This document shows, piece by piece, positions 1 to 50,000 of a stretch of 64,000 bases of DNA (position 1 is its first letter; each line of letters begins with the position of its first letter). The position numbers and the translations under genes are program-made. This DNA is from Gordius sp. MW1 (Eukaryota; Nematomorpha; Gordioida; Gordea; Gordiidae): positions 22,754,001-22,818,000 of the forward strand of contig OZ038526.1 of the NCBI GenBank assembly GCA_964036665.1. Reading direction: 5' to 3'. Below the pieces are notes generated by a model. That model was not told the origin of the DNA. It saw only the letters and a program-made list of their open reading frames with translations, and ran no database searches.

Positions 1-371
1 TCCTTTTCCAATGAATCGAAGAATATGTCTTTCTCTGATTCCATACACCCAATTTGGGGAGCATACGCGCACATAACGGTTAGGAGGCCACCTTGATCTG
101 CAATCTTCACCCACATTAGCCTGTTGGAACAACACTTGACATCCACCACCTTGTCCTTGAACGAATCGCTTAGAACGATACCGACCCCGTTTCTAAGACT
201 TGGTGACCCATTGTAGAAAAGCTTGTATCTTTCTCCTAATTCCCGAGCTTTCGTTCCGTTCCACCTTGTCTCTTGTAAGCAGGCGATGTGTACCTTTCTT
301 ATTTTTAGCATTTGTGCGACCTCGATGCTCTTCACCGTCAACGTTCCCACATTCCAGCACGTTATTCGCAT
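1..371 (-). CDS. RTE-type LINE endonuclease domain, partial at window edge
   Basis: An open frame runs leftward from an ATG at 371 off the left edge of the window, about 123 codons without a stop. It reads as the N-terminal half of an apurinic-like (EEP) endonuclease from a non-LTR retrotransposon. WNVGTLT lies near the start, LQETRW (holding the metal-binding Glu) about 40 residues in, NGVGIV about 75 residues in, and YAPQ near the edge. The protein nicks target DNA to prime reverse transcription; the reverse transcriptase would lie beyond the window. WNVGT and QETRW are typical of the RTE clade. The frame stays readable upstream to about 550 with one stop, so the true start is uncertain. 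It may belong to the same family as the 3' pieces at 27118-29078. Confidence 0.8.
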   Translation of the reverse strand, partial: MRITCWNVGTLTVKSIEVAQMLKIRKVHIACLQETRWNGTKARELGERYKLFYNGSPSLRNGVGIVLSDSFKDKVVDVKCCSNRLMWVKIADQGGLLTVMCAYAPQIGCMESEKDIFFDSLEK

Positions 372-649
372 TCTTTCCACAACTAATTTTCTTAACCTCC
401 TTCATTGTGAGTTGGGCAGTAACCCTAGTGTATTTTTCACATTGCACGGGCGGGGTATGTCGTTTGTGGAGGATGCCCTAGCTTTCTCTTGTAAAATCTT
501 GTTTAAAACCATCATGATTTTGGAGTTGGTTTTTATAGCCTCGACCTGGCTATTTATCAAGTACGAAATAAATAATCTCTGCTTTCATCTCCACTTCCTT
601 TGTTGAAATAAGAGGGAAGCAATAGTGAGATAAACGTTTTAGGTGTTTT

Positions 650-787
650 CATGGGCGTAGCCAGGTCTTGGATTAGGGGGGGGGGCGAAATCGTTTAAAG
701 TTCAATTAGGGGGGGGGGGCAAAACATAATTTTTTTTTAATTTTTTTTGTCATTTAGGTGGGGGGGGGGGGCTGGCTGCACCCATGA
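650..787. mobile_element. MITE with CATGGGCGTAGCCA ends, family A copy 1
   Basis: The element begins CATGGGCGTAGCCAGG and ends in a weaker GGCTGCACCCATG. It holds three long G runs separated by AT-rich segments. The inverted full copy at 2677-2847 and the partial copy at 63687-63829 share the interior order: a CCTAAATGACG block, a poly-A block, a C run, then a CTAATCCAAAACCTGG block. No coding potential is visible. Confidence 0.75.
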
Positions 788-1042
788 GTGTTTTAGAAAG
801 TATTATTTTTGTGACTTCTTACTAGGGGTTAAAATTGATTGTTTTCCTCACAAATTCTGATTGCCACTTTATGATAAAGGATTAAGTTTCCTGAAGATTC
901 TAGTTACTTTTTGTTTTGGAGTTTATAGTCTTGATTTTTTTCTTCAATATTTCATCAAGAATCTTATTAATGTAAAAATTCAAAATCTTAAGTTTATTTT
1001 CTTAGAAGAGATGTGATAAGGAAATTTCTGCAAAACGATTTT

Positions 1043-1777
1043 TCTGTGGCCTCGCCCGAGCCCGAAATTTTGAATAAAAAAATTCAGGCCCCGCCAGGGC
1101 CCGACTTTTGGCATTTTTAAAAATAAGGCTCTGGTCCGGCCCGAAATTTTAATAATTATAGAAAATTTTATGAAACTTAATTTTGGAAACTTTTATTGAA
1201 AAATGAGACTAATACAATTATAACTTAAAATGGAACTATTTTCATGCAAAAAGACCCAGGCATCAAATATGATTTAAATTAGTTCTTCGCTCTTCATAAA
1301 TGCGTTTTACAATTTCTCTAAATTTCCTTCCCTATTAAGCATTATTAAAACTAGCATAAATTAATCTGATGAGCAAGAATTGTATGATAACACATTCTTG
1401 CAACAAAATCCATTCTCTTACCCACACATATAAGAACTTTTTAATATTTCAATCATTCTTTTAAGGGTTTCTTATTTAAATTTTTTTTTGAAAATTTTCA
1501 GCTATAAGTATATTTCTATTTCCCCCATACTCAATAGTTGGCATATTAAAAATAACTCGAAAAGAATGAATGTTTAATAGTTTTATTACTTAATTAATTA
1601 ATTTTTGATAATGTGAGATATCATTTCAAATAGGACAAAGACTACTTAGACTACTATTTTTTTAATTATTTCGGGCATAAATTTTATAAATTAGGCCCGG
1701 CCCGAAATTTTAAACCCTCGAAATTCTTGGGCCTGGGCTTATCCGGGCCGGGCTTGGACAGCCCGTGCAGGTCTCTA
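1043..1777. mobile_element. hAT-like non-autonomous element with GCCCGA subterminal arrays
   Basis: Two clusters rich in GCCCGAGCCCG, at about 1049-1150 and 1684-1770, flank an AT-rich core. The right end reads GCCCGTGCAGGTCTCTA, the reverse complement of the left end of the copy at 10394 (TAGAGACCTGCACGGCCC). The exact left end is unclear. The design of a short terminal motif plus subterminal oligomer arrays resembles non-autonomous hAT elements, but I found no target duplication here. Confidence 0.5.
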
Positions 1778-2060
1778 TGTTTGAATTACAAATGGTCTTG
1801 TTAATCAGTTTTTGAAAATTGTGCAAGAAAATCGTCCTCAGAAAATGTGGAGGCAAGAGATGGCAAAAAGAACTTTACTCCTCCATGTGGAATCCAGAGG
1901 CATATTAATTTTGTAAATATTTTAGAGGTAACTGGCGATGAATTGGAGTTTGGTCTTGTGCCAATATTATCATTGAATTCTTTCATGTATCAACGAATTT
2001 TTAACAAATAAACTATAAAAAGTAATAATAAATTATATTTTTTATAGTGTATAGTATGAG

Positions 2061-2420
2061 TAGAGCCCTGCAAAATGAATTTTTTTCTGCCCGAGCCCGG
2101 CCCGAGCCCGGCCCGAGCCCGACGTCTCAGTTTTTATTTTGCCCGAGCCCGGCCCGAGCCCAAATTACTCTTTTATTTTTGGCCCGACCCGTAAAATTTT
2201 TGAAAATATACAAATGCATTAAATTGTTATTAATCGTAATTTACAACTAAGTTTGAAATTAAATTTTCATTTTCATTCGCTACAATTTATTCAGCCAATA
2301 ATTTAAAACTGGAAATCTAACTTTATAAAATATTTTATCTAACAGTTCCAAATAAAAAACTTTTAAAAAAATTTGTTTATTCAATTTCTAAAGCTAACCC
2401 TAGCTGAACAAAATAAAGTA
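2061..2420 (+). mobile_element. hAT-like element end, GCCCGA family (TAGAGCCCTGCA terminus)
   Basis: It starts with TAGAGCCCTGCA, followed within 130 bp by six or so CCCGAGCCCGG units and then an AT-rich segment. The segment at 62640-62947 is the same sequence family in opposite orientation, sharing the terminus, the G/C arrays and AT-rich blocks such as AGTTCCAAATAAAAAACTTT. The right end of this copy could not be found, so it is probably truncated. A 67-codon open frame over the array (2047-2250) is a by-product of the repeat. Confidence 0.6.
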
Positions 2421-2676
2421 ACAACCTTTTGGTCTGTTTTTCTAATATCGGCTAAACCTAAAGGTCGACTAAGAAAACAGACCAACAGACCTCAGGTCTT
2501 TCTGGAGATCAAACATTAGCCATAACCTGGTCGAAACCCCTTGCTTTTATTTACAACACTACTATCAACTATGTATATACGATTCTAGAGACGTGGTTTG
2601 CTTTCATAAATTGAGGTCACAATTGTAAACACTTAATATTACTTAACAATAATAGTTAGAATAAAAAGCATAAGAA

Positions 2677-2847
2677 CATGGGAGTAGCCAGGGGGGGCAG
2701 GGGCGGTCGGCCCCCCCCCTAAATGACGAAAAAAAAATTCATTGCAAAAACCATTACAAATTAAAAAAAATTAGGTTTCCCCCCCCCCTTGATTGAACTT
2801 TTAAACGTTTCGCCCCCCCCCTAATCCAAAACCTGGCTACGCCCATG
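2677..2847. mobile_element. MITE with CATGGGCGTAGCCA ends, family A copy 2
   Basis: The ends read CATGGGAGTAGCCAGG and CCTGGCTACGCCCATG, an inverted repeat of about 16 bp with one mismatch. The interior is that of the copy at 650-787 in reverse orientation, with poly-C tracts. It sits about 1 kb upstream of CAP1. Confidence 0.8.
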
Positions 2848-3820
2848 CATAAGAATAAGAAGTTTAAAAACCATAAGCCAAGAAAACAAAATTTTTAGCT
2901 CTCTATATAAAAGTGTTTCCCCCATCATCTTAATTTAATATATTATCTGTTATCCTTATCCGAAATTATATCCAGGACTAAATGGGCTATGAATGCCATA
3001 TTTTTCATATAGTAAATTCTGCATTTATATATATCTTCGCTGACATAGTTAAAAATGTTAGGTGAAGTAGATCTAATATACCAATTATTTAGAAAAATAA
3101 GCGCTGTCATTAATTCTAATTCATAAGACTTAAACTTTAAATATTTCATAGTAGCTCTAAAGTCTTAAAAATAGTTCTACTATAGATTTTTCATTTCTGC
3201 CTCTTCTATATTGTGCAAATAATTTTATTTTATATATTTAATTGCTAATAGCTTTCTTTGCTTATTTTTAATTAATTTGCCAATTTATTATAAAGATATT
3301 CAATGTACGTTTATTATTAAGGTAGAAAAAATGACACAACTTTTTAGAGTTATTGGATAATTTCTGCAGTCTGAGGTCATATCATCGAAATATTTATTTA
3401 AATATATGAAACCAGTAATTGAAAACAAATTAAATTCCAAATATAGTAGCTATATAATGCTTGACTTATAAATCATGGAAGCACAAAATAATTCTCGGCA
3501 AAAAATTTTGATAATTGCAGAGTGATAAATTAGTATTTTGTGTACTCTTTTTGCCATGTCTAGTATTAATAATTAAATCAAAGATTCATTATTTATTTAA
3601 TTGATTTTGCTAGATGACCTTCAGATTTACATCCTCATAAAACAAGGTTTTATTTCTCACCTGTGTCAATTAGGTCAATTGGCACACTGTATCCTATAAA
3701 TCTTGAAGTTTGTAGGAAAGAAAAAGTTTGAATATCATAATTTATTTTTTAAGACATGTAAGTTTATTTGTAAAATGACTGATAATATTATTTTTGTAAA
3801 GGGTTAATCTAATATCTTCA
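2848..3820. other. AT-rich upstream region of CAP1
   Basis: No exon, RNA gene or repeat recognised. The 68-codon frame at 2943-3149 (-) has no familiar motif. The stretch should hold the promoter of CAP1, but no promoter element stands out from the AT-rich background. Confidence 0.4.
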
Positions 3821-4965
3821 ATGACAATTTTGGTGCTCATAATGATTACTGTGCTTTCAAGTAAATATCATTTAAAAATTTTACAAATCATTACTTTTAT
3901 TATAATATAAAGAAATAAGTGAATTCAAAATTGCTGATCTCAAGTTGCAAAAGTCTATTCTTGACGCTCATAATAAGTACAGAGCAAATGTAAAACCGCC
4001 ATCTAACAATATGCTGAAACTGGTAGTCTTAGTATTTATTAAATATCGTATAGCATATATAGTGTCTCATTTTCCAATATGAACGAAATGATCGTTCTTA
4101 AATTTATTGCATACTTTTTTTTTCTAATAGACATGGAGTATGGACCAAGCGAAAAAAGCTGAAAATTTGGTTAAAAGCTGCCCTCAGTTTATTAAAAACA
4201 CCCCAAAATATTCGACTGAATTAGGTATTTTTTAAACATTCATTTATTTTAATATACAAATTTATTTTGTAAAAAACATATTATTTTAATTCATTGCAAT
4301 AGGATTATGGCATTTAAAATTAATTATATTTTAGCCACTCCAAATGCTGGTCAAAATTTTTTTGCCTATAATACCCGCGCATCTTGGCCAAACGTAATAA
4401 AGAATTGGGCTACAAGGGCCAAGGATTCTTTTGAATATAATGGAGCAGACTTTAAACCTACCAATAATGATAAACAATACGCTCAGGTATACAAAAAGTC
4501 ATTTGTTGCAACTATATAATATGGTCTTAGCTGGTGGCAGGAGCAACAAAATTCGTTGGCTGCGCCTCGAATATATGCAATGGATGGGGTGTATTTGCTT
4601 GCAATTACGATCCACAGTAATATATTTTTACATTATAAATTAATATGTAAACTTTTAATTTAGTTATTGCGGTTTTAAAGGTTAGGTATTCTTTGTGCTC
4701 TGGAGCCAAGTGAATGTCTCATGTTGGTTTTATTAATAAAAATAACATAGAAAAATCTAATTTTCAGCATATACTATTCAAGAAAATGTTGAATCACATT
4801 TTTATTTATATTCTTTATTTATTCAATATTTGTAGTTTAAATGAAGCTAATGTCGCTACTCCATATGAAGAAGGTGACGTACAATCATGTGATGGATGTA
4901 AAGCGAAACCCGTTTGTGGAACTAAAGGACCATTCGCTGGAAAACTGTTGATTTCCTGTGGATAA
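3821..4965 (+). CDS. CAP1, secreted CAP/SCP-superfamily protein, six exons
   Basis: Proposed exons are 3821-3860, 3913-4022, 4131-4224, 4335-4486, 4531-4616 and 4836-4965. They join in frame to 203 codons plus a stop, with every intron GT-AG. Exon 1 encodes a hydrophobic signal peptide (MTILVLIMITVLS). The mature protein shows CAP landmarks: ILDAHNKYR (helix 1), LTWSMDQAKKAENLVKSC, a GQNFFAY segment where most CAPs have GEN, NDKQYAQLV where most have HYTQ, then VGCASNIC and FACNYDP, and a C-terminal hinge-like region with SCDGCKAKPVC and a final SCG. The product is probably extracellular and disulphide-bonded. CAP proteins serve as sterol/lipid binders, allergens or secreted effectors; the role here is unknown. 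The usual cavity residues in GEN and HYTQ are Gln here. CAP2 at 14631-15730 has introns at the same places and phases, which strongly supports this model. Confidence 0.9.
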
Positions 4966-5468
4966 ACTGCTTTTAACTTTTCATTTTATTACTTTAAATA
5001 CTTTATTTGCATATAAATCAATCATATATCAACAAAATATTCACTTGATTAAAATTTTATATAATTAAAACAACTATGTTAATAACTATCCACTTCTCAC
5101 ATCATTGATAAGTAAAAAAAGCTAAAAAATATACAGATCTGTTATTCATAATTACATATATTTAATACATATGCTGTCTTAATAAAATGTATTTGACCAA
5201 TATTTTTTAAATACTAATGTTAACAAGTTTGGACCTATTGGCCCCAATCCAGAGTAATTAAAAAAAATCATGATATATTTTATACCAATTTCAAAATAAT
5301 TTATTTTATAAATTTAGTTTTAAAACATATACAACGATGGCTATAGATATAATTTGCAGTTTAATTAAAAAAATAGGTCTCATTCTAAAAAATTTTTTAA
5401 CTTAAATCTTCTTTTTATGGTTTTAGAGTTTATTGGCTAAAATGGGAGTAACATTGTAGGGTGGTAAG
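4966..5468. other. 3' flank of CAP1, AT-rich
   Basis: No gene recognised. No clear AATAAA follows the CAP1 stop within the first 100 bp; variants such as TATAAA at about 5010 exist but are not diagnostic. Confidence 0.35.
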
Positions 5469-5612
5469 TAGAGCCCTGCACGGGCTGAGTGAGGCTCGGA
5501 CACTCAGCCCGACTTGACATTGGGCCTGGCTCAGGTCTGAAGTTAATCGGGTTTCGGGCTGGGGTCGGACCTGATAGGTTGACCCGACCCGAGGCTTTAG
5601 CCCGGCCCGAGA
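5469..5612 (+). mobile_element. hAT-like element end, GCCCGA family
   Basis: It begins TAGAGCCCTGCACGGGC and continues with diverged GGCTCGG, GGGTCGG and CCCGACCCGAG blocks to about 5612. The other end was not identified. The terminus matches the copies at 2061, 60547 and 62947. Confidence 0.55.
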
Positions 5613-5879
5613 CAAAATCTAGCTAAAAGGTTTTACCAAATTTTAATATACAGCAAAGCCGTACTGGGACGATTGTAAATAGAGCTAATTTTTAATAAAG
5701 AACTTAAAGTCAGCATTGGTCGAAAATTTTTAATAGTGCTCTCAAACAATTGCTATTGCAAAACTAATTTTATTTAATTGTCAATGCAGGTTTCTTATAT
5801 TTTTTAAACCATCTTTAACAAAAAACCATTTCATAAATATTAGAATTTCATTTTTTTAAAGATTTTTTTTAATTTCTAA

Positions 5880-7610
5880 TTTCTCAAAAGGGTATAAAAT
5901 TTCGATTGTGGTTGCCACTACGGCAATGAATATTGTATCCGAGAGGAGGAATATTTAATAGTCTTTCTATTCTTTGCACTGACTATAAGGTCGCAAGAGG
6001 AGTTGGATGGGGCAAATATTTCGACCGTGGTAAAGTCCCAAGTGAGATTCAGTTCAAGGAACCAGAATGAGTGTGATGCCGTCTGGTTTTTTCTGTCAGT
6101 TGTGCTAAGGTCGACGGTTTAAGGTGTTTGAGAAGCCAGCCTTCCTAAGTTACTGGCCGATGATTTTTTTAAGGCCGTATGGGGTTGCACCCTTGCTGTA
6201 TTTGCAATGGAGGATATGATGTTTATTGGGTTGGACCGGTTGTTTGCAGAGATTGCTTATGAATGGGGATCTTATGTCACAGCCGAGCCTATGGCTATGC
6301 TTAAATCCTTCCCAGACATATGGAGTTCAAATTCCTGCTAAGAATTGCTTCGAGACATTATTAAGCTTTTTTGGAAGAGGCTTAATTGGAAAAGTTCCCT
6401 GAGATAATTCGTTCGAAGAATGATATGCTACGGAACGTGCTATCAGGGAAAGTTCCAATTCCTTTTGGGTCACTACGAATGGTCGTTCAAACGACTCTGG
6501 CTGTCCGCGTCCCACTTGTGGAGAGCCTCCTAGAAGTGCGGGTCTGGGAGGGATGTCATGCTAGAGATAATAAGGTCGATACTTATGCGCGCGAAGTTAT
6601 ACCAGCTAATGCCATCTGTTGCGGAGATATAACAGGGAGGGATGCTTGGAGCCATTGAACCATATTTAAGCAGGTTTCAAAAAAGTTTGAATGTTTCGTT
6701 TGATTAAATTTAGTTGCTCGGGGCAGCTAAAGATAGGTAATGCACGCAAGGTGATTTATTTTCGAGATTAGCAGAAAATTTCAGCCAAAAAGAAGGCATG
6801 GTGAGGGGTAGATTTTTGCAGGGTAGGTATGAAGGCCTCTATAGAAGTTAAAAATTTGGTCAAAATGCTGGGAGTTATGGGCCCCCAGAGGTGCGCCTAG
6901 TTGGCTGAACTGGTCAAGAGTGAGGACAGTAAAGGGTAGTTGAAGTATCCCTGCTGTATATTTTGCATTTTAGGTGATTGAGTTCGAGGCCTTATATTTC
7001 ATTTGCGGGGCCAACCAAAAATCGGTTGTCCATGTACGATAGGGTGCAAGAAAAGCGTCCTGTGATAGACAGTTTTTCGATGATCCCCTGTATGGTTAGG
7101 CAGAAAAGGGGTGGGCCTAAGAGATCTGCTGTATCCCGGGGGAGGGAATTAACTTGTCCCCAAGCAGAAATAATTATGGGGCTCCATAACTGTTGAGGGC
7201 GTATGAGTAAAATTCTGGGTATGTTTTAGGAAGGGTGCAGTGACGCTGTTAAAAACGTTTTTAAAGTCGAGTTTAACTAAAAGATCTGTCTGAGGTGATA
7301 ATTCGAAGAGGATTCGGGCCGTATGGGCGGCTGCATTACAACTTCCCTTAACTCCTAAACCAAATTGGTTGAGGAGAAAGGAACAAGCGCCAAAGAGGCG
7401 CGAATTTTGATCTTGATTAATTTGGAAGGCATTCCGCGTAAAACTCACCCTATAGCGATGAAACCTGAGTCGTCGGGTTTATTGGAGGCCAACAGAATTC
7501 CTCCAAAAAGAAGTTGGGATATTTCCAGAGGGAATTGGTCCCTTATTATAACATTGCAGAGATGTTTAAGATTCGTAAGTAGGCTTTGTGAACGCCTATA
7601 TATGACTTAA
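5880..7610 (-). mobile_element. Decayed LINE of R2-like layout, copy L1 (RT to C-terminus)
   Basis: Reading leftward: the palm region of a reverse transcriptase at 7149-7448, with QFGLGVKGSCNAA and motif A VKLDFKNVFN; a frameshifted motif B (GIQQ then PLGPPLF) near 7100; a motif C changed from YLDD to YMDN followed by FLVGPANE near 7040; and a C-terminal domain near 6000-6250 ending in WDFTTVEIFAP. The C-terminal part matches copy L5 (52560-53880) and L4 (35800-36930). RPDG...WD spacing plus a Cys/His cluster recalls the restriction-like endonuclease of R2-type LINEs. Stops and frameshifts throughout make it a pseudogene. The 3' tail shares TTGTGGTTGCCA with L6. Confidence 0.75.
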
Positions 7611-8457
7611 TTAGATCTTGCAGAAAAATTGGGCGGATACCATCTAGTGCTTGCAAAAAAATTTAAACTTATATAATTGTCGTATACGTGTATACGTGAA
7701 AGAAGAATAGTTAAATTTAGTATAACTTTTATTAGTATAATATTTTCTACATATTCTGTTATTGCTATAATTATGTAATTTAATATTGTAAACCAAATCC
7801 GAGTTGGTAATAACCATAAGTTTTTGTGATTATATCTTTCTAATTTTTCTTTGTTCCTTAGTTTCCCCACCCCGGCCTTAGCTAGTTATCAATAAAGTTT
7901 AGTTACCAACATATACTTCTCCTAATCTATAATATATCATTAATCATATCAATTCTGAACATATCTAGCTCTTGTTAATCATTAATTTCTTAGAGTATAT
8001 TATATCATCACATATTATTGTTCCTTAGGTATTTATAAATAATTTTTAAACTACTATCTATAAATAAATGATTTTTTACACAAGCATATAAGAGGCCTAA
8101 AACTCTGTTTAAAAATTGGTATGCGTTCCTTTATTTGTGTTAAAATTATGATCATTTTAAAATGGGGTCACTATACCCCACATCCACAATTCTGCTCAGG
8201 ATTGAGATTTTACAAGTATTTCCGAGATTTAATTTAATAAATATAGCTATATATTACCCTCTAGTACTATATATAGACTAGTTATAATAAGAGTGAGACT
8301 TTATAAAGACTTTGATGATTATGGATCATGTTAAAATGATATACTCTGTGTGAGTGTGAGTTTGTTTAAAAGAGTAATATGCATACGCATAGCATAGGGA
8401 TAAGGGAAAAGGGATCATTAAAAGGTGCGTGGGCAGGAAGTTAAGGTATAGGCATAC
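7611..8457. other. AT-rich stretch without recognised features
   Basis: No exons, RNA genes or element ends recognised on either strand. The 87-codon frame at 7607-7870 (-) has no known motif. Confidence 0.35.
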
Positions 8458-8465
8458 ATACAGAT

Positions 8466-9155
8466 TAGAGGTGTGCACGGATCAAATTTTTTTGATCCGA
8501 TCCGAGGGGTTTTTGAAAAATTATCCATCCGATCCGATCCGAGTTTTTTAAAATCTAAATCCGATCCGATCCGATTCGATCCGAGATTTTTAAATTAAAA
8601 TTTTACGAACAGAACTTTTTATTCATGATTTAATTCAAAATACATAAAAATAAGATATAGCAATTTTAATAGGCCCGAAATAATTATAAAATTTTATTTG
8701 ACTAATTCCATATTATCATATAAAAATAATAAAAAATCTAAATTTTCTGGTTTAATTCGCGTTCTTCTTTCTTCTAATGTTCTTTTAGCCACCGAGAAAT
8801 TTTTTTCCGAAGTGGTAGAGGTAGCAGGTATAGCCAAAACTTAATTTGCCAGCTTATAAAGCCTTGGCAGGACTGTTTGATATGAAACCCACCATTTCAG
8901 CAAATCTTTTTTTGAATCATATTTGCAATCTTCATTTCAAAGATAATTATGAAAAGGTATACTAAAAATTATTAATTTAATTAATTAGAACTTATTACTG
9001 TTTTTTTTAAACTTGAAAATCCGATCCAATCAGACTAAAATAAAATGTTGATCCGACCCGATCCGACTTCCAAAATTAAAATGTTGATCCGATCCGATTC
9101 GAGTTCGGACGGATCGGATCGGATGTCGGATCGGATTGATCCGTCCACACCTCTA
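8466..9155. mobile_element. hAT-like element with exact 8-bp target duplication and GATCCG arrays
   Basis: A 690-bp element begins TAGAGGTGTGCACGGATC and ends GATCCGTCCACACCTCTA, an imperfect inverted repeat of about 18 bp. It is flanked by identical 8-bp direct repeats ATACAGAT at 8458-8465 and 9156-9163. An 8-bp duplication is the hallmark of hAT transposition. Both subterminal zones hold many GATCCGATCCGA units, on the left to about 8585 and on the right from about 9020, probably transposase binding sites. There is no coding frame, so it is non-autonomous. The perfect duplication suggests fairly recent insertion. Confidence 0.9.
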
Positions 9156-9639
9156 ATACAGATACAAGGGGAGGAGGCTCAGGATTGATTAAAAGATTAT
9201 ATCAAACACGGTCCCTCTGCCATTCCCAAATTGTATTGCTCAAACAATCAAATATAAAAAGGTAAGTAAATTTCTTTTCTATACCAAAGGTAGATTGTTA
9301 TCTAAGTGGTTCAGTATATCCTTTTGCATTATTTTACAATTATCATTTTGATAGTGTTTTTTAAAATTAAAATTTTATTTTTGTTAAGATTTAAATATTA
9401 ATACTAATATAATGTTCACACGACTTTTTAGATAAAACCTTAATTATTTGATCGATTTAAAGTCCCACTAAATTATCAATTTAAAGTGTCAGGTCGTTCA
9501 TAAGCATCCATTCCCTAATGCTAATTTTAATTTTCAACTATACTCCGCTTTCGATCCGCATCTCGTCTACCTCGCCCTATGGCTGATCTCTTGCGAAGTG
9601 GGTTTATAAGATTGGTTTATTAAAACTAGGCTCTGGGAA

Positions 9640-11490
9640 ATATTCGAGATTCGATTCGGGATTCGGTTCGAATTCGGAATTGATTCGAAATTTCGAATCG
9701 AATCCCAAATTCAAATTCTTTTTAGTAAATTTTGAATCAAATAAATACTTGCTTAGATTCGAAAATCCGAATCGAATCTTCAAAAAGGATTCAAAAAATT
9801 ATTTACTTTAAATTTATTTTATACGAGACGAATATAATAGACTATTTTTATCTTTCCGCACATCAGTATTTTTCCTTAATAATTGAATATAAATTTTATA
9901 AGCATACACAAAATGTATTAAAATTGTTTTTAACATATGATATGACTTCAGCTTCCAGAAAATCTTCATTATATTTGCTAAAATTTTAGCTCAATCCTTA
10001 TTTATGTTTAATAACTTTTTTTTACTTATCCATTATATTTTAACATAAATTAGACTGGTCAACATATAATGGACTTATAAATTCAATCGGCAAAGTAGAG
10101 TTTTACGGAGAACAAAAATATATTTTTAGTTTTTCCCTATCAAATTTCTGAAATATTTGGTGATAGGGTTACTACGTCAATAAATTGCAAATTAATTGGT
10201 AGAAATTTAGGTTAATAAATCCGATTTAAAGGGGAGAGATCCATTAATAAAATTATTCTTACCTTAGCTCTATTAATTATTGATATATATTTATCTCAAT
10301 CTTTTTAAATTGAAAATTTTCCCAGACTTAAGGTCGCCCTCCTTCCCTTTAACACTAGTAATTAAGTGCGTGTTGTTGTTTATCGTCTACTACTAGAGAC
10401 CTGCACGGCCCGGTCCTCGAACGGCCTAAAAGCTGGGTCGGGCATAGAGGGGCTTCTGTTAAAATAATATAACTTAACGGGCTTGGGCCGAGTCTAGATA
10501 TACGTAAGGCTTATTAAAAGCCCTTTATATAATCAATTAGGTTTTTTTGTGTTTTATAAATTCTAAACAAAGGCTTGTTTTTATAATGTTCCAGTTTATA
10601 ATTATGGGATGTATATTAAATTAACAAGGATTCAATGGATTCCTCTCCCCTATAATTATAAATCAAATTTTTTAAATTTAAATGTTACCCATTATTTGCA
10701 AGTTATTGACTTTTAACAACGCTAATTTCACTGTTTTTAGCAACTTTGACAGCAAATATTTCAAACTCTTGACGTATAGAAAATAAATTAAAAATACTTG
10801 ATCACCACGAAAAACTCTACAAAATCTGCAATCAATTTGCCGGTCGATTTGTTGAACCGTGTTTTTAACTATTTATAATATATTTTGATATATATTAACC
10901 TTAAATGCCTAGATTTTATTTAAATGCATAACATTATAGTATAATAATTAAACAAGATAATAAGTTGCACGAGTACCCCAACGAAATAATAAGTAAACTC
11001 TGATTAACGCCATCTAGCCGAAATTTTTAACTAGTTACCATGTTAAATTTAGATAATTTCGATACAGAAGAAGAATTAGTTAATGGTTTTGGACCATTTC
11101 ACACATAATAAATTATCCAATTATGCTAATTGCGTTCATTGTAAAGGTTTTTTTTATCTAACAACCAAAATTGACTAAAAAACAATTCTTACTTTGTTTC
11201 AGAAATATCGGATATTTTATCCTTTTCGCTTTTAATGTTTTTATATTCAATCTATGTATTTTTATAAAAAAAAATGCTTTTAATGTATTAATAAATTAAT
11301 GCGATATTTAGGAATTGAAAAAATTTAAAAAAATTTCGAATCGAATTCGAATCTTAAATTTTTTTTCGAATCGAATTCGAATCTTAAAATTTTTTTCGAA
11401 TCGAATTCGAATTATTTTAAAATTCGACGAATCTTGAATCGAATATTTTTTTAAAGAAAATTTTCGATATTCGATTCGATTTGAAATCGG
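9640..11490. repeat. Pair of ATTCGATTCG subterminal arrays
   Basis: Clusters of ATTCGATTCG and CGAATCGAATTCGAATC variants lie at about 9640-9790 and 11330-11490, with AT-rich DNA between. The arrangement mirrors the GATCCG element at 8466-9155 and suggests the two ends of another non-autonomous DNA transposon. I could not fix the termini or a target duplication. The 85-codon frame at 9732-9989 (+) has no recognised motif. Confidence 0.5.
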
Positions 11491-11700
11491 CGTAATTAAA
11501 ACATTTTACTAATTTGTTTGTTGAGTAGGCTATTTAGAGGAGACCGAATATTTTTATGTTAAAGATGCGGGTGGGTTCTGAATAAATCATTTATAAATTT
11601 ACTCAAACACGTCAGGCTCGGGCTCGGGGCGGGCCTAAATAAAAAATAATTTCGGGCTCGGGTGGGGCTGGGGCAAAATATAAAAAAAAGTGTCGGTGTC
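10394..11700. repeat. GCCCGA-family hAT-like ends, interleaved with the ATTCG element
   Basis: A left terminus TAGAGACCTGCACGGCCC begins at 10394. A cluster of GGCTCGGGCTCGGGG lies at about 11605-11695 in the opposite sense. If these are two ends of one element, it overlaps the right array of the 9640-11490 element without nesting inside it. One of the two must therefore be truncated, or the clusters come from separate copies. No coding sequence seen. Confidence 0.4.
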
Positions 11701-11729
11701 GGACAATTATCCTAATTTATTTTTAATAT

Positions 11730-12559
11730 TTAAAGGTAAATTTTCCCATTTAGGTAATTCTCCATACGCCTCTGTGGGCTGTGTAACTTTTGAAAATAAT
11801 TTATTATACATTTTTATATACGAAAAGTTTCTATGTACTTAATACGTATAAGAAATTAAACTAAGTACTTATGTTTGTCTATAACAGGTGATTTATTACA
11901 GAATAAAGTTTATTTCATTTTTAAGATTTTAAATATCTACGAGTGTAATATAGAAATATATTGTCTAATATCAATTTTGAATACAGCTATTAAATAATTA
12001 CATATGAAGAATATGATATTAATTTCAAAATTAATAGAGTATTTTTTATTCATGCTTCTAACTCAATTATCATCTCCTATTTAAAATATAGATACCTAGG
12101 TATATTTCCAACATTTATAAATAGTTTTTCCAAAATCAACATAATATTTTATGGTTTTTAATATTATGCCATATAGCTTACCAAAGAATTGCTCGTTCCA
12201 GGTGTGTACCAAAACTAAAAATAAATAAAATTAGTAATCTTTTCTGTAATGAAGCGTTGTAAATTACTTTTTTTTCCTCCAATATCTTAAAAATAAAGCA
12301 ATTTTACAATTTTAACAAATTTTTTAAACTAAATGAGTATGTAAAAGCCAGTAAATATCTATTATAGTATCAATAGAAGTTGAGTATAATGCATGCAGAT
12401 TATAGTAAAAGAGAATAACGCTTATTTTATAAAACTGTGCCATGGTCCTTTAATCAAGTAATATTAATTTAATAAAAGAATCCTATAAAACTTTGTGTAA
12501 TGAGATGAGTTAAAAACCTTTACATTATATACCCAGTTGATTATATTGAATGGACCAAT
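11730..12559. other. AT-rich stretch without recognised features
   Basis: No exon, RNA gene or repeat end recognised. A second look at small exons is warranted because host exons here can be as short as 40 nt. Confidence 0.35.
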
Positions 12560-13019
12560 CATAGACTACATAGACTGCTCATCACGGTATAAAATGTGTG
12601 TGTTTTTTTCCGCCATTTTGAATAACACTACCGTCCTATACCACATAATGGCGTTTTGCGCTGTGCCGTTTTGTTCGAACAGGAGAGGTAAAGAAAAATG
12701 GTTTTGATTCCATAAATAAGTAAGATATTACAAAATATATTATATTTTTAAAAAATTTTAACATCATTACAGTTTTTACATTTTTAATTTTTATGAAATG
12801 TGTCAATAATAAATTTTTAAAAATATCATATATTTTGTAATATCTTACTTATTTATGGTATCAAAAAATTTTTTCTTTACCTCTCCTGTTCGAACAAAAC
12901 GGTACAGCGCAAAACGCCATTATGTGATATAGGACGGTAGTGTAATTTAAAATGGAGGCAAATTTCACACACAATTTGCCATATGGAACATATAACATGG
13001 GCAGTCTATGTAGTCTATG
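12560..13019. mobile_element. Palindromic element carrying a THAP start exon in each arm
   Basis: The 460-bp segment is a long imperfect inverted repeat. Both ends carry CATAGACTACATAGACTGC or its complement, and each arm is about 200 bp around an AT-rich centre near 12800. Each arm holds a 40-nt possible exon (12648-12687 on + and 12881-12920 on -) starting ATG and ending at a GTAAAG donor. It encodes MAFCAVPFCSNR, which fits the start of a THAP zinc finger (C-x4-C). THAP fingers are the DNA-binding domains of P-superfamily transposases and related host proteins. Flanking 8-mers GGACCAAT and GGAGTAAT agree at 6 of 8 positions, suggesting a decayed 8-bp target duplication. The rest of the transposase is absent. 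Confidence 0.7.
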
Positions 13020-14630
13020 GGAGTAATAGATTAATAGTTCTTCCTGTATTTTTAAAGTTTCAAAAGCTTTTGGAATATCCCTACCCAAGTTCATTTTTAA
13101 CAAGTCGACTTTTATTTAAGGCAATTTGATAAATAGTTTAAGCTTTTTAGAAACGATGTCATGATTGATGTTTTGTATGTACATTATTTTGAGGACTGGA
13201 AGAAATTTATAGATCTTGTAAAAATCTTTAAATGTTAGCTCTTTTATTATTAACTGAAAAAATATTTCCCCTTTATTAAAATAGCTTATATAAAACCTTA
13301 ATATGAAGGATAGCAAAATAATAATGAATATATGTTTACTGTTAATTCCAGTTTTATCTAAATATACGAAATCGTAAAAGGTTATTTTGTGTTAAGTGTA
13401 TATTTATATTTACTAAGGCCTAATATTGCTTTGTAAGATCGAGATAATTAGCAAAATTAACATTAGTGTGTAATGTAGAATCTACATTTGATTACATTAT
13501 TTAATTACCGGGTTATATATAATTTAAAAACTTAAATAGTCATTCTGTCTTTTGATAATAATGTGCTTGAAATTAATAAATTTTTCTTTAAATACTTTTA
13601 TTAAGCACTCTGAGTGATGAGCTATTAGTTTGGTGCGCCTTTCTCTTGTATATAATTTCAGCAATGCATACATTTTTATAAGATTTTTAAATAAACAAAA
13701 TATCTCGGAATATTTTGTAAATATCTATAACACTAATTTATTTATTTTACGAGGCTCTTATTAATAAATACTACTGTATTTTTCATATGATGATTGTATT
13801 AAAAACTTTAGAAATAGAGTTGATTTAAATTACCTCCTTGGTAACTTTAATTATCTACTTATTATACACAATCATTTAGAAATAAACGTCTCTTAGCAAA
13901 ATACTTACTATCGTTTTTTCTATCTGAAAAACAAATTTAAGGTTGGCAATACATTTTTTACAAATAGTTACAAACAGAAAAGCTTTTTTATGCTAAAATA
14001 TTTTTAAATGCGCCTTACTTTGGTCATTTCCTTCTTGCAAAGATTGATTGGAGCCTTAAAAAATGATGAGAAAAGGGTTAAATTTTACAATAAAGAAAGT
14101 GTAGCAAAATTGACAGAATCAAAATGTATTGTAGTAAATCTTTTAGTCATAATATAAATGATAAAAAATAGCTTTGAATTAAAAATTAACTTTGATTAAT
14201 GTAAAAATAGTTAATTCGTAGCAAACATAGCATCGTTAATATTACCTTGCATTGCACCTATAAAAATAATAATTAGTTAGAGAGAAGCAATAATGACTTA
14301 CCAAGTTATATTAATAATGCTAAATTTTTGCGCCATTTCTAGGTTTATTTATTTGCTAAGCTTTTGATCCATTCTTTATAATTAGATGGTTAGTTCTTAA
14401 GTTAAATATTTTGACATTTTCGATAAGAATATTTTTTATTTTCGGAAAAAGATAGCATTATTAAACTTGCTTATGCATGAGTTAAGACACAATTGCAGCC
14501 AATTCGACTATCAAAGGGTTTGATAGATTTTAAATAAGCTATAATATTTTTACAACATTTTTTTCCAATTCGACGATTCGCTAACTAATGCTACTATTAA
14601 CCAATAAGTTAAATATTGTCTTAATCCTCT
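13020..14630. other. AT-rich region downstream of CAP2
   Basis: Nothing recognised on either strand. Short open frames at 13116-13316 have no known motif. Confidence 0.35.
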
Positions 14631-15730
14631 TCATATCATATTATTATGAAACAATGTACCACAACTGGTTAGCAATAGTCCTGCAAATGGACCAGTGGTT
14701 TCACATATAGGCGATGTTTTGCATCCTGAGCAAGATTGTTTTGCTGATTTTGAGTAGGGGGTAGCTAATAAATTTTCCGGTATTCTAATAAATAAAAAAA
14801 ACCTAACATAGAACCGTTATATAATCAAAATGATATTATATTTTTGGCAAATTTAATTTAATTTTAAAAATGATTAGTGCTTTTGTATATCGTTTACGTC
14901 AATTTAGCGTGCATAATAAATGAGATAAAATTTGGGCTTAATTAAGCAATTTCATAAATGACGTTTTGCAGCCTTCTGATTAAAAGCCCGTCCCTTATGT
15001 CAAAAAAATATTTACGCCTTATCAAAGTTGCATGCATATATCCTCCACGTTCCACAGTAATTGCTCGAGCAACCAACTTTACCAGCGACTCCGTAAACTA
15101 ACTAAAATATAATGCACAATATAATTAATCTATTCATTTATTTTTAAGTTAATGTAAATAAACCTGAGCATATTGTTTATCGTTGGGGCTCATTTCATAG
15201 TCATTAACACCATATTCATAGGTTTGATTAGCCGATGTAGCCCAGGTTTTGATTAAAGTTGTCCATGAAATTTGGCCAAGGTAAGCCAAAAATATTTGCC
15301 CTGTTTGAGGGGACGCTGCATGTAATTGAGAGATTATATTTTTACTTAATATAGGGGATATATAGATTTAGGTAACAAATCATAGAGAATGCTATAAAAC
15401 TAACAAATTTGGGTAGAAATTTTGAGTTTGGGAACAAAAGAAGGACAGGAAGCGACAAGGCTGTCAGCAGCGACGGCTAATCTGCTACTCCATACCTACG
15501 AAGGAGTTAGTTATTTTTAAATTAAATTTACTAATTTCAGCATATTATTGGAGGGGGGAATGACAGTGGATCTGAACATATTTATTTTGTCCAATATGGT
15601 ATCAATCATTAAAGGATCCGGTAAAATGGCATGAGTTATACCTAATTAAATTTATAGCACAAAATATTATGGACGCTAAATTACTTGAACATAAGGATTG
15701 AGAGAGAATTATAAATATGAAAAAGTTCAT
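14631..15730 (-). CDS. CAP2, secreted CAP/SCP-superfamily protein, six exons, paralogue of CAP1
   Basis: Exons in coding order are 15685-15730, 15532-15641, 15405-15495, 15164-15315, 15016-15101 and 14631-14784. They join in frame to 212 codons plus a stop. Exon 1 encodes a signal peptide (MNFFIFIILSQSLCS). Exons 2, 4 and 5 have exactly the lengths of their CAP1 counterparts (110, 152 and 86 nt); exon 3 is one codon shorter; exon 6 is 24 nt longer, adding TLFHNNMI after SCG. Shared landmarks are PPSNNMLKL, NDKQYAQLV, VGCSSNYC, YACNFD, an SCSGCKTSPIC hinge and GPFAG. HNKYR of CAP1 is INMFR here, and GEN and HYTQ residues are replaced as in CAP1. All introns are GT-AG, 43, 36, 89, 62 and 231 nt long. 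It is probably a secreted protein of unknown role and an intact duplicate of CAP1. Confidence 0.9.
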
Positions 15731-17250
15731 TATGCAAGCCGAGTTATAGAATATTAGATTTAAGATTTTAAGCAATATATATACTCTTATATATGGGGTG
15801 AAGCCAAATTGGAATATATTTTGTGCTGATTCCAAATATATCAGTGAAATATTCAATTTTATTAATAGCCAATATTTTTTGCAACCACCTTAATTTACTT
15901 GGCGCCAACATTTTAGATGGGACCATAAAATTATTTATTAAAATTCTTTGGCAATACATTTTATTGATCATAAATAGAGTTGTTAAAGAAACTAGTTCTA
16001 AGTATTTAGCTCCTGGAACTAAGCATTATAAAAAGGAATTGACCTAATTTGTTTTCAAGTTAGGAACATAAAACTGTAATTAGATGCTTGTGGGGCAGAG
16101 ACACGGCCAATGTATCTAGCTGCTTTTTTCGAAAACTTCCTATTGAGGGTATTGCGTATTTGGTTTATTATACACGGGCAATAAGTAAATTGCTTATACA
16201 TTTTAATTTTAAAATAAACTAGGTAGTCTGAACCATTAACGCAGACTTTGTTGAAACAAAGCAATAATAGGTACTGATTTAGTTTGTTTGTTGGTTTTCG
16301 GGATATGGCACAAGACTATTAAATGTATCGCAAAAGTGAACCACTAAGTGCAGGGTAAAAAATAATAGCATCATTTTATTTTTAATTTTCTTTTGGACCT
16401 AGAATATATTAGATAAAAGGCATTCCTCAGGGGTGATTTCTGTTTTACATTAAATGTTAACGATGGTTTATTTGAAATTTTTTGGGATTGAAGTATAATA
16501 AATATTTTTAATTTTATACCCATAAATGTTTGACAATTTTAGTTCCAAACTAAGACTTCATATAAATAGCGCATTCAAATATTCGTTTAACATCACATAT
16601 TTCCATTTCCCCAAGTCAAAGAGAAAAGGAATCAAGGAAATATCCCAAAATCAAAGAATTTATACATGAGGCACACCGTAACTCATAGGAGTCCAGTGTA
16701 CTCCATCGTTCGGTATTGGCGCCTTAGCTAAGAAATTTTAGTCCGTACTATGCAATTATATTATTATATTTTAAACCCCTTTTTATTTTTGTCGGGTGTT
16801 ATCCTTAGCGACAATGGAACCACTTTGTTAACATTGAAACTAAAAAGCCTAAAATAAATGTCAATAACCCAAATGATTGCATTTATTCTAAACAAAATAT
16901 TGCTTTTTAAATGTAAGTGGCCGCTCTTATATAGATGCCGCTGTTTGATTATTTTATAAATAATTAAATTAACCAAAAATAAAGTCTTTAACAAAAATAA
17001 TCCGAGTTATAAATGTTAATAAATATTAAAATTTACTATCTTTAACTTAGAAAAAAGTGGCGTAGGAAGGGGGGGGGGGGGGAATGCCAAAAAAGATTAA
17101 GAAAAAATCCGAATTATATGGAAAAACTGAATGATATTAATGGGACTTTTGTTAGATTATGCTAATAGAAAAAATTAATTACCATAATTAAATCGATATT
17201 AGATAAAAATCAACTAATTTTAAGGCACAACAAATGTCCGTCCTTTTTGT
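15731..17250. other. Upstream region of CAP2, AT-rich
   Basis: No exon or repeat recognised. A run of 13 G at about 17070 resembles the homopolymers of the MITEs elsewhere but has no matching terminal repeats. Confidence 0.35.
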
Positions 17251-30083: not shown

Positions 30084-31440
30084 TCATTGCAAGGCCATAG
30101 GATATACAAAATTTGTGGTTTTACCCTTCGGCGCGAAAATAAACAGCTTCCTCGGTGTACCTACACGGGAGCAGGCTACATATAGTTGGCCATGCGAAAA
30201 GCATGGATTTTCTAGATTTAAGCCAACAACAGTTAATGATTGTCCCTGGGCTTTATTGATTGTCATTGCGAATGCTAGGCGTACAGGAAACTGTACGCGC
30301 TTGAATTCAAAGGGCACATCGGTGGGGATCATGGGGATGCGTGGGATCATCACGTCCTCGCCTTTATACGTTCCGCTGATTATAGTAGCCGCAATAACGT
30401 TTGGACGCAGTTGTTTTACGGCAAGTCTGGTGCCATTACACAACCTCGGGGGATGTAAGTTACGCAGGAGTATTATAGGGCACCCAGGTTTAAAGGTTAA
30501 TTTATGTGGTGAAGACCCGAAGGTGTTAACGAATTCAACACCTGAATAATTTACAGTTTGATCGGTTTCTATAACCGTATCAATAGAGCTGTAAGTAAAG
30601 GGATCACCTGGAATGTGCACTTGAATACGATCATTCATACGGGTGACAGCTGCATTTGTTGGCGCTACTATTGCGCGTTCCCGGAGCCATGTGTGATCGG
30701 TGTAGTGCGTTGCAATGTCGGGGAACACCATAGTTTCAACAGCCTCAGGCGATGGCAGTAGGTGACAAAAGGTTGTTGGAAAGGTACTTTCCCTTGGAGA
30801 CGCGGTAAATGGAAAGGTACCGTTCCCCACAGCTATGAGTTGTTGTGCAAATAAAGACGTATCCGGGAGTGAATGCACGCGCATGTTCGTAGTAAGCGTG
30901 AAGATCGTAAACTTCCACCAAAGATGTGACGCCTTCAGGCAGGCATCCAGCTCATCAGCCGATGTTGCTCTTAGGATAACAGGTAATGTTTGTCGAAAAT
31001 CACCGGCTAGCAACAATAAGACCCCCCCATAGGGAAGTCAATTTTCCGCAAATCTCTGAGAGTACGACCTAGTGCCTCGAGCGCTTTTTTATGCGCCATC
31101 GTACATTCATCCCAAATTATGATTAAGCATGTCTTTAGGACTGTCCCAATTCCCGAGTTACGACTGATATTAGAGGTAGGTTTTTCAATCTGATGCAAAT
31201 TTAGGGGGAGCTGGAAAGTAGAATGCGCCGTGCGGCCTCCATCGAGTATCGTCGCCGCTATCTGCGATGATGCGACAGCTAGGGCTAGCTCGTTATTGGC
31301 GCGAAATTTTGCCAGTACAAGATTAAGGAGAAAAGTTTTACCACTGGAGCATCAAGGAAAAGCAGACCGCCGTTACCGGTTGAGGCGTACTGCAGTACGG
31401 TGTCGTACGCGGTTTTCTGGTCGACGGTAAAATTTACTTC
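30084..31440 (-). pseudogene. Helitron Pif1-family helicase, frameshifted
   Basis: Order of motifs reading leftward: VDQKTAYDTVLQYA; GLLFLDAP then SGKTFLLN (Walker A, with part of the usual GGTGKT loop lost and the frame shifted); IIIWDECTMAHK (Walker B) at about 31110; a frameshift at a G7 run near 31025; LLAGDFRQTLPVI (motif III); LTTNMRV; then LTFKPGCPIILLRNL, GTRLAVKQL, RLAFAMTINKAQGQSL (motif V), LYVACSRV (motif VI) and a stop at 30084. This is a 5'-to-3' SF1B helicase that unwinds DNA during rolling-circle transposition. From 31016 to 30084 the frame is intact (310 codons). The C-terminal portion is matched by the Helitron A fragment near 20000. Confidence 0.88.
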
Positions 31441-40530: not shown

Positions 40531-41046
40531 TCACACTGAACATAGTTTATTTATATATTCATTTGCCTCCTGTAATAATTGTTGCATATCCTTGAATTTA
40601 GCCAGTCTTTGAGCATCACCTAAATTTAGCCATTTATAATCTGTATGTTCTTGAGATAACGTAATAGCTTTTGTAGGATTCAAAAGATAAACAAGCCAAT
40701 AAGAAACACTTTTATCTGATCTACCCAAATTAAAAGAAGTTGGCATCACACTATAGTTTAGAACTCGACAAAACTCTTTATGCAACTTAAGATCACTGGC
40801 TTTTAACCCTGTTTCCTCTAATGTTTCTCTAAATGCTGTTTCAAATTTATCTTCTCCTTTATCCACGTGGCCTTAATAAATTTATTATGTTTACGTTGTT
40901 AATTTTAGTAGATTAAAGACATAAAAATATATTTAACCTTTTGGAGGAGTCCATAAGCCTTTTTTATAACTAGCCTCTAACAAAAGGTATTCTAAAACTT
41001 GTTCATTTTTTCGATAAACTATAAAACCAGCTGCCTCGAGCTTCAT
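40531..41046 (-). CDS. NUDT2: Nudix hydrolase, Ap4A hydrolase (NUDT2-like), two exons
   Basis: Exon 1 is 40938-41046 and exon 2 is 40531-40871, joined in frame across a 66-nt GT-AG intron to 149 codons plus a stop, close to the usual length of this family. The start MKLEAAGFIVYRKN and GLWTPPKGHV are typical of Ap4A hydrolases. The Nudix box GX5EX7REUXEEXGU is complete (GHVDKGEDKFETAFRETLEE, then TGL), split by the intron after its first base. VSYWLVYLLN and SQEHTDYKWLNLGDAQ match the substrate-binding half. The enzyme cleaves diadenosine tetraphosphate asymmetrically to ATP and AMP in the cytosol. The start codon lies 36 bp from a MITE (41082-41444), so core promoter or 5' UTR may be MITE-derived. 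A fragment starting at 40866 is only exon 2. Confidence 0.95.
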
Positions 41047-47034: not shown

Positions 47035-50000
47035 ATTTTTAAGCTTCCTGATATTGACGCTGATAATTCCAGAAACATTATTCCGTCTGCGCAAAGTAAG
47101 CAATCCTTCGAATAAGTTGGCCCTGCTACTTGAGGCATTACCTCAAAACGTTTGTACAGAAGTACAAGATCTCTTCGAGGACATTACCAAAGATGACGCC
47201 TTGAGCAAATAAAATCAGCTATCATTCGCCGTACTTCAAACTCCGATCAACAACAATTAAATCTTTTAAATAATTTGGAATTAGGGGATCAACGCCCCTC
47301 GCAGTTACTGCGACAGATGAAACAGCTGTTGGGAAACTATACCATGGACGACGAGATTTTTAAGCAGATGTGGCTTAATAAATTGCCTATTTCACCAACA
47401 TTCTCGCAGTGTTCGCTGCTGAACAATGTACGTCAAAATTAGCTGAAACGGCTGAATCGCCGAGGCAAATCAGGGCAACGCCATACATAGCTTATCTACT
47501 AACAATGAAATTTCGAATCTAAAAGAGATGGTGGAAAAATTATCACTGGAAGTCCAAAAACTAACGGCAAATTCTGCCAGGTCCCCTACTCGCCAGTGTT
47601 TCCCCCCCCCTAGAACTCACGTCGCTCCCTTTCCCCTAATGGTAATAACGCCAGCGACGTGTGCTGGTACCACAAAAAATTTCAAAAACAACGCCAAAAA
47701 ATGTACCCCTCCCTGCTCTTTCACGTCCCGATTTTCGACAAACGCCTAGACCAGCCGGGAAAGGCGACGCCCGAGCTCGGTCATGTTCATCGTAGTCGCC
47801 TATTTTATATCATCGACAAACTTTCCAGACACCGTTGGCTCGTCGACCGGCGCGGACATCAGCGTCCTGCCAGCTAAATCAAATCAACGTTCCCTACCTG
47901 CCCCCTTTCAATTACAAGCTGCCAATAACAGCTGTATCAAAACCTAAGGTCAAATTCCTTTATCGCTTGATCTCGGTTTGCAAAAAACGTTCAGGTGGAT
48001 ATTTACGATCGCAGACGTGAAAACACCCATTTTAGGGGCGGATTTCCTCGATTTCTTCAATCTCATAGTAGATTTAAGAAGGAAAAGGTTGATAGACCCA
48101 CAAACAGCGACAATATCAAATGGTGTACCAACCTCAACGACATCTTTAAGAATTCAGTCTTGCTCCCAACCGTTAGAGAATAAATTCACAAGTTTATTAA
48201 ATGAATTCCCCGAAATAATGAAGCCTCCGGACTACAGAAAACAGACGCATGGGGCCGTGCATCACATTCCCACTAAAGTACCGGCATCTTACGCCAAACC
48301 TCGGCGATTAAACCTGGAAAAGCTTAAAATTGCAAAGGAGGAGTTCGCACATATGTTGGATCTTGGAATTATTCGACCATCACAAAGCAGCTGGGCCTCT
48401 CCTTGGCACATGGTTCCAAAAAAGACTCAGGGTGATTGGCGGCCTGTGGAGATTATTGGAAGACAATTCCGGATCGTTATCCCCTACCCCACATCCATGA
48501 TTTCTCGATGAACCTAGCTGGTACCACAATATTTAGCAAGCTTGATTTAATACGGGCGTATCATCAGATCTCCGTTGCCCCCAAGACATTCACAAAACGG
48601 CGGTAATAACGCCGTTTGGACTCTATGATTTTTTGAGGATGCCATTCGGTTTACGGAATGCGGCTCAGACGTTCCAGCGTTTCATAGACCAAGCATTCCG
48701 AGGATTCCCTTTTACGTTTGCATACCTGGATGATGTTTTGATCGCAAGTAAGTCTAGGGAGGAGCATATTCATCATCTCCGTCAGGTATTCACGCGACTA
48801 AAACAATATGACCTAAAGATCAACGCTAGCAAATGCTAGTGGGGACTAAATACGATAGACTTTTTGGGGCACAATGTTTATACGACGGGTTTAACTCCGC
48901 TTCCCAGAGAAAGTTATAACGAGAAAAAAAATTTCTATTCCTAGATCTATGACGCAACTTAGAAGGTTTATAGGCATGTTAAATTTTTACCGGCGTTTCA
49001 TTCCCCAGTGTGCTCACCTGCTCAAACCCCTAACCGACTTATTGCACGATAAGAAAAGGCCAATCGTCATGACGAAAGACTCTATAGATGCTTTTGAGAA
49101 AGCGAAAGAAGCTCTTGATGACGTTACTCATTTGGCACACCTTGAGGAAGGCGCAATTCTTTCTTTGACAACAGACGCTTCAAATTCAGCTGTCGGAGCC
49201 GTTCTCAATCAAACGAAATGTGGTGAAACTAGTCCTATAGCTTTTTTTCGCAAAACCTTACACCGGCACAAGGTCGTTACAGCACATTTGGACGAGAGCT
49301 ACTTGCCATTTATTTATCGATAAAAGATTTTAGGCATCTGCTTGAAGGTCGTGACTTTACAGTTTACCGACCATAAGCCTTTGACCCATGCCTTGCTTTC
49401 CAGACCTGACAAGTATTCCCCCCGAGAATCTAGACATCTAGATTCTAGATTACATATCGCAATTTACGTCAGATATTAGGTTTATCAGTGGCCATACTTA
49501 TGTCGTAGCCGGCACTTTGTCCCGCGTTGACATAGACACCATTCACCTTGAAAGTATATCCTCAGAGCAGATAGCTAGATCACAAGAATTAAAATTTTAC
49601 AGCCCCGACCAACTTTCGTCGCTTAACATTTTAGATTTTCCTATTCCCGGTTCAAATTTGGCGATTAAATGTGACACCTCCTGCGCCTCACCACGCCCGG
49701 TTGTACCTACTTCAATGACGCGAAAGGTGTTCGACCTCATACATAGCCTCGCTCACCCCGGAATCCGTGGAACCCTTAAGCTGGTGGCTAAACGATTCGT
49801 ATGGCCACAGATGAATAAAGACGTACGGTCATGGGCAAGACGATGCCTTCAATGTTAAAAGTGTAAGGTCAACAAACACACTATCACAACCCCTGGTAGT
49901 TTTGCTAATCCTGATGCACGTTTCATGTGCATCTTGATTTAGTCGGCCCTTTACCACCTGCTAACGGCTATACCTACTTGCTTACTGCTGTCGACAGATT

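Follow-up and report, generated by a model that had tools for sequence, protein, structure and literature searches.

Two convergent short-exon CAP genes of Gordius sp. MW1 as very likely members of an old, dispersed gene family

Results

Gene models of g1 and g2

A stretch of 64,000 nucleotides from the genome of Gordius sp. MW1 (assembly GCA_964036665.1, contig OZ038526.1; hereafter, the window) carries two convergent genes, g1 and g2, for predicted proteins of the CAP (CRISP/antigen 5/PR-1) superfamily. The window corresponds to C8:22754001-22818000, C8 being one of the 12 contigs of the 211.8-Mb genome. Gene models rebuilt from the raw sequence placed g1 on the forward strand (3821-4965) and g2 on the reverse strand (15730-14631), with six exons each. 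The exons of g1 were 40, 110, 94, 152, 86, and 130 nt long and were located at 3821-3860, encoding a hydrophobic leader, 3913-4022, containing the motif HNKYR, 4131-4224, 4335-4486, whose end (...KQYAQ) occupies the CAP1 position, 4531-4616, and 4836-4965, containing the last four cysteines and the stop codon. Those of g2, all on the reverse strand, were 46, 110, 91, 152, 86, and 154 nt long and were located at 15685-15730, again encoding a hydrophobic leader, 15532-15641, where isoleucine replaces the histidine of the aligned HNxxR motif, 15405-15495, 15164-15315, 15016-15101, and 14631-14784, containing the stop codon.

The spliced models encode proteins of 203 (g1) and 212 (g2) amino acid residues. 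All ten introns are bounded by GT-AG, the intron phases are 1, 0, 1, 0, and 2 in both genes, and exons 2, 4, and 5 are equal in length between them. The original prediction, made from the letters of this DNA, had described two intact convergent genes with this architecture, and every number in it was reproduced. It had also stated that the genes escape simple gene calls. Consistent with this, neither g1 nor g2 was listed as such among the open reading frames of at least 90 amino acid residues in the window; one frame of 95 residues (15602-15889, reverse strand) merely crosses exon 1 of g2. Exon 1 is strongly hydrophobic in both genes, and secretion is predicted from this property only. The two proteins shared 46.8% identity across 201 residues (E = 7e-68) with a synonymous divergence (dS) of about 2, at which silent sites are saturated.

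Assignment to the CAP superfamily

In a search with the Pfam CAP profile (PF00188), g1 and g2 scored 49.3 bits (E = 1e-12) and 39.7 bits (E = 1e-9), respectively, both above the curated cut-off of 21.1, which bears out the family assignment made originally. Among solved structures, the snake CRISPs (pseudecin, 2ddb; pseudechetoxin, 2dda; natrin, 1xta/1xx5) were the best sequence matches. The top match of g1 was pseudecin (E = 6.7e-16), followed by SmVAL4, GLIPR1, and Ves v 5, with nine distinct sequences matched at an E-value threshold of 0.001. A profile of 11 family members matched 23 distinct PDB sequences, the best being a snake CRISP (E = 4e-34). SmVAL4 (4p27) matched g1 at E = 2.5e-8 and 5wee (Venom Allergen like Protein 4) matched the family profile at E = 7e-7, both more weakly than the snake CRISPs. 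The match to the snake CRISPs spans the CAP domain and extends into the beginning of the C-terminal part; however, the HS, GEN/GES, WYDE/WHDE, and GHYTQ motifs carried by those among the listed alignments to g1 are absent from g1.

In the motif definitions of PMC4118828, CAP3 is HNxxR and CAP4 is G(EQ)N(ILV). The CAP3 motif is present in g1 (HNKYR) and not in g2 (INMFR), and the CAP4 position is a near miss in both (GQNF and GQIF, respectively). CRISPs have 16 cysteines in all, whereas g1 and g2 each have eight in exons 2-6, with one more in the leader of g2, and the cysteine-rich C-terminal domain of the CRISP subfamily was not found in either protein.

An upstream tandem copy and its divergence from g1

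A third intact-looking CAP copy, g0, was found on the forward strand shortly before the start of the window (L033:3821-5334; C8:22749820-22751333). It lies on the same strand as g1, ending 6.5 kb before the start of g1, and is its closest relative, with 89% protein identity over exons 2-6. The two genes share a forward-strand unit of approximately 3 kb (window 2562-5503 versus L033:2466-5883) consisting of four blocks with 88-89% DNA identity. When L033 was compared with window 1-17000 (matches of at least 60 bp), the homology stopped at L033:5883 and window 5503. The origin of g0 and g1 by tandem duplication was shown by this computation. The high identity of the blocks, flanks included, is also what would be seen if two haplotypes of one gene had been wrongly set in tandem by the assembly; however, the existence of an end to the homology argues against such a false duplication, and the dS of 0.18 between g0 and g1 would be high for alleles, making this explanation very improbable.

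The coding sequences of g0 and g1 differ by 22 silent changes (136 sites) and 24 replacement changes (473 sites), giving a ratio of replacement to silent divergence (dN/dS) of 0.29 (Fisher's exact test, p = 7e-5). We read this as constraint, that is, purifying selection, on g0 and g1. For a pair of family members on C6, the ratio was 0.32 over exons 3-6.

The family across the genome

With g1, g2, and another family member as queries, exon matches were obtained on contigs C2-C8, along with weak matches on C1 (E = 0.05 to 0.4); the match counts are lower bounds. We read 19 loci on seven contigs, comprising g1, g2, and 17 fetched stretches and leaving out the C1 matches and a match at C8:25.75 Mb. 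C8 contributed six of the loci, C4 five, C6 three, and C7 two; C2, C3, and C5 contributed one apiece. Models were obtained for 17 of the 19 loci, and 13 had complete exons 2-6 with GT-AG introns and the same phases, which were imposed in the search. When phases were left free at 14 loci, in a search around the existing models that was scored against g1 and g2 only and covered exons 2-5, the family phases were best in 14 of 14 cases for both exon 4 and exon 5. For g0, g1, g2, and several others, the search for a hydrophobic leader exon with a phase-1 donor gave good scores; it found none that was convincing for g3, L035, L036, or C2_L037.

On C8, g0 and g1 on the forward strand are followed by g2 and g3 on the reverse strand, forming a loose array. 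The fourth copy, g3 (L034:2839-5277, reverse strand), lies 49 kb past g2 and just past the end of the window. L036, likewise on C8, nearly duplicates L035 at a distance of about 47 kb; the exon 4 donor used by the family is out of phase in L036, yet an earlier donor is in phase. L047 (C7:4.26 Mb), which is of the C6 type, looks decayed because placement succeeded only for exons 5 and 6.

The family fell into two clades, a split supported at 100/99 with both 17 and 14 rows. One clade consisted of g0, g1, g2, g3, L035, L036, C2_L037, and C7_L048, and the other of nine of the 17 rows, located on C3, C4, C5, and C6. Six of the eight modelled rows of the former clade are on C8, where they form two clusters.

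Relationship between g1 and g2

It had been proposed that g1 and g2 arose by a local inverted duplication. Comparison of the two gene regions by blastn (word size 7, E-value threshold 0.001) yielded only two DNA matches, of 54 and 26 bp, which are situated in exons 2 and 4 and reach 3 and 5 bp into introns. The nearest copy of g1 is the same-strand g0, and g1 and g2 share almost nothing in DNA beyond these two exon stretches; the proposal is thus unsupported. The matching intron phases, confirmed in both genes, do not indicate a recent event because the same phases recur throughout the family, and their agreement between g1 and g2 looks like family inheritance.

A single old local inverted duplication that gave rise to g2 and to g1, or the common ancestor of g0 and g1, with flanks that have since decayed, is possible but somewhat unlikely. 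The two genes adjoin in opposite orientation, the best pairwise match of g2 is g1/g0 (51% protein identity), and g0, g1, and g2 grouped together in the best 14-row tree. However, this group was supported at merely 58/32. In the same tree, placing C2_L037 with g0 and g1 instead cost 0.65 log-likelihood units and was not rejected in the approximately unbiased test (p-AU = 0.42), and neither grouping g2 with C2_L037 (p-AU = 0.23) nor grouping all five C8 rows (p-AU = 0.23) was rejected. Moreover, C2_L037, on another contig, is as near to g1 (50% protein identity) as g2 is (51%), and DNA homology between g1 and g2 outside the exons is almost nil. We conclude that, rather than forming a recent inverted pair, g1 and g2 are both long-standing members of a larger gene family.

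The metal site and the cysteines

The metal-binding tetrad of CAP proteins, His-Glu-Glu-His, is absent at the aligned columns of g1 (K-Q-R-Q) and g2 (P-Q-S-Q). In all nine rows of the clade on C3-C6, three tetrad columns retain their His, Glu, and His, so that both histidines are present (as in C5_L043), and Gln replaces the first Glu in all nine. In the clade containing g1 and g2, the first His is absent in eight of eight rows as aligned, although for L035 and L036, which have a nearby His (CPKH), this loss hinges on the alignment. The second Glu is absent in all seven rows with exon 4 (six substitutions and one gap), and the last His is absent in five of these seven and retained in g3 and C7_L048. 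In this unrooted tree, we read the difference as loss of the tetrad in the metal-poor clade rather than gain in the other because other CAP families carry the tetrad. Eight cysteine columns were kept in all covering rows (17/17 or 16/16). Judging from these residues, g1 and g2 probably retain the fold and lack the cation site.

A caveolin-type aromatic pattern was noticed in g1 and g2 and is absent from g0. Among 2000 shuffles, it also arose in 337 for g1 and 262 for g2, too often for it to serve as evidence.

Other features of the window and contigs

Between g1 and g2, elements with inverted ends were seen by eye at 8470-9160 and 12573-13020. Pieces of a PIF1 helicase, Helitron-like in our reading, are located at 30084-31351 (reverse strand), and pieces of retroelement reverse transcriptase and RNase H at 48546-49323 (forward strand), 56429-56806 (reverse strand), and 3-401 (reverse strand), the last with an endonuclease family match below the family cut-off. 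A NUDIX domain exon, presumably NUDT2-like, lies at 40531-40872 (reverse strand). An Rfam scan of the window returned nothing at gathering scores.

Contig C8 is 37.4 Mb long and out of size order after C2-C7 (21-27 Mb), for which reason it might be a sex chromosome. Contig C12 (14,798 b) is mitochondrial, with matches to COX1, NADH dehydrogenase 1 (ND1), and the C-terminal part of cytochrome b under genetic code 5, as well as to large-subunit rRNA. Translations of C12:3001-6000 (L051) revealed a short tandem repeat array at about 635-1000, between ND1 and COX1.

Discussion

CAP multigene families whose members share intron phases have been described before, as have CAP members without the tetrad. 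The portions of PMC2270263 on Schistosoma mansoni group 1 SmVALs describe a CAP multigene family whose members mostly have signal peptides and share intron positions and phases. The group 1 SmVAL structure given there has five exons and four introns with phases 0/2/0/2, in contrast to the six exons and phases 1/0/1/0/2 of g1 and g2. As described in the relevant sections of PMC4118828, SmVAL4 retains only one of the four tetrad residues, and the tetrad is therefore typical of the CAP superfamily rather than required.

Each of g1 and g2 would yield a secreted, disulphide-braced protein with the CAP fold. Their clade, having lost most of the His/Glu tetrad, would most likely function independently of divalent cations, and the CAP scaffold may bind a lipid or a partner protein. 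For yeast Pry1, the pertinent text of PMC4921858 reports sterol binding with Mg2+. SmVAL4 and HpVAL-4 share with g1 and g2 the absence of the metal histidines, and both still bind sterol according to the binding results in PMC4118828 and PMC5893428. For this reason, our best guess is that they bind a lipid or a protein without a cation, and lipid binding by g1 and g2 is put forward tentatively, with the odds somewhat against it.

With family and origin judged jointly, we consider it very likely that both g1 and g2 are intact and belong to a CAP gene family that is old and dispersed. Several points weigh against the reading developed here. The splicing of g1 and g2 is predicted from genomic DNA, and the lipid step of the mechanism is drawn by analogy. 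In the free-phase search, exon 2 recovered the family phases in only 7 of 12 cases, and exon 3 did so in 9 of 14; all five exon 2 failures were at its variable start, with the ends agreeing, and those of exon 3 were at the end in four of five cases and at the start in one. With dS at about 2, the g1/g2 dN/dS of 0.28 cannot be relied on, so that constraint on g2 is argued mainly from its open frame and kept cysteines. Between g0 and g1, the DNA identity of exons (0.90-0.97) showed no clear excess over that of introns (0.89-0.94). This last point, together with the damaged-looking relatives L036 (exon 4 donor) and L047 (only two exons), would fit g1 or g2 being a recently silenced pseudogene with its frame still open. 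That is nevertheless quite unlikely: both reading frames are intact over their full length, as are all ten pairs of splice sites, replacement changes between g0 and g1 are rarer per site than silent ones, and all eight family cysteines are kept in both g1 and g2. The original claim that both copies are functional is supported as likely, by the g0/g1 ratio for g1 and mainly by the open frame and the cysteines for g2.

It is conceivable, although we think it unlikely, that the metal-poor clade is a lineage-specific secreted group, grown mainly on C8, with a new cation-free role, for example, in reproduction or gland secretion. The value of the findings lies mainly in annotation, in that models are provided for two short-exon genes and placed in their array. 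In addition, a single animal genome has CAP paralogues of the same gene structure that either retain or lack most of the metal site, which makes them a useful resource for studying the role of that site.

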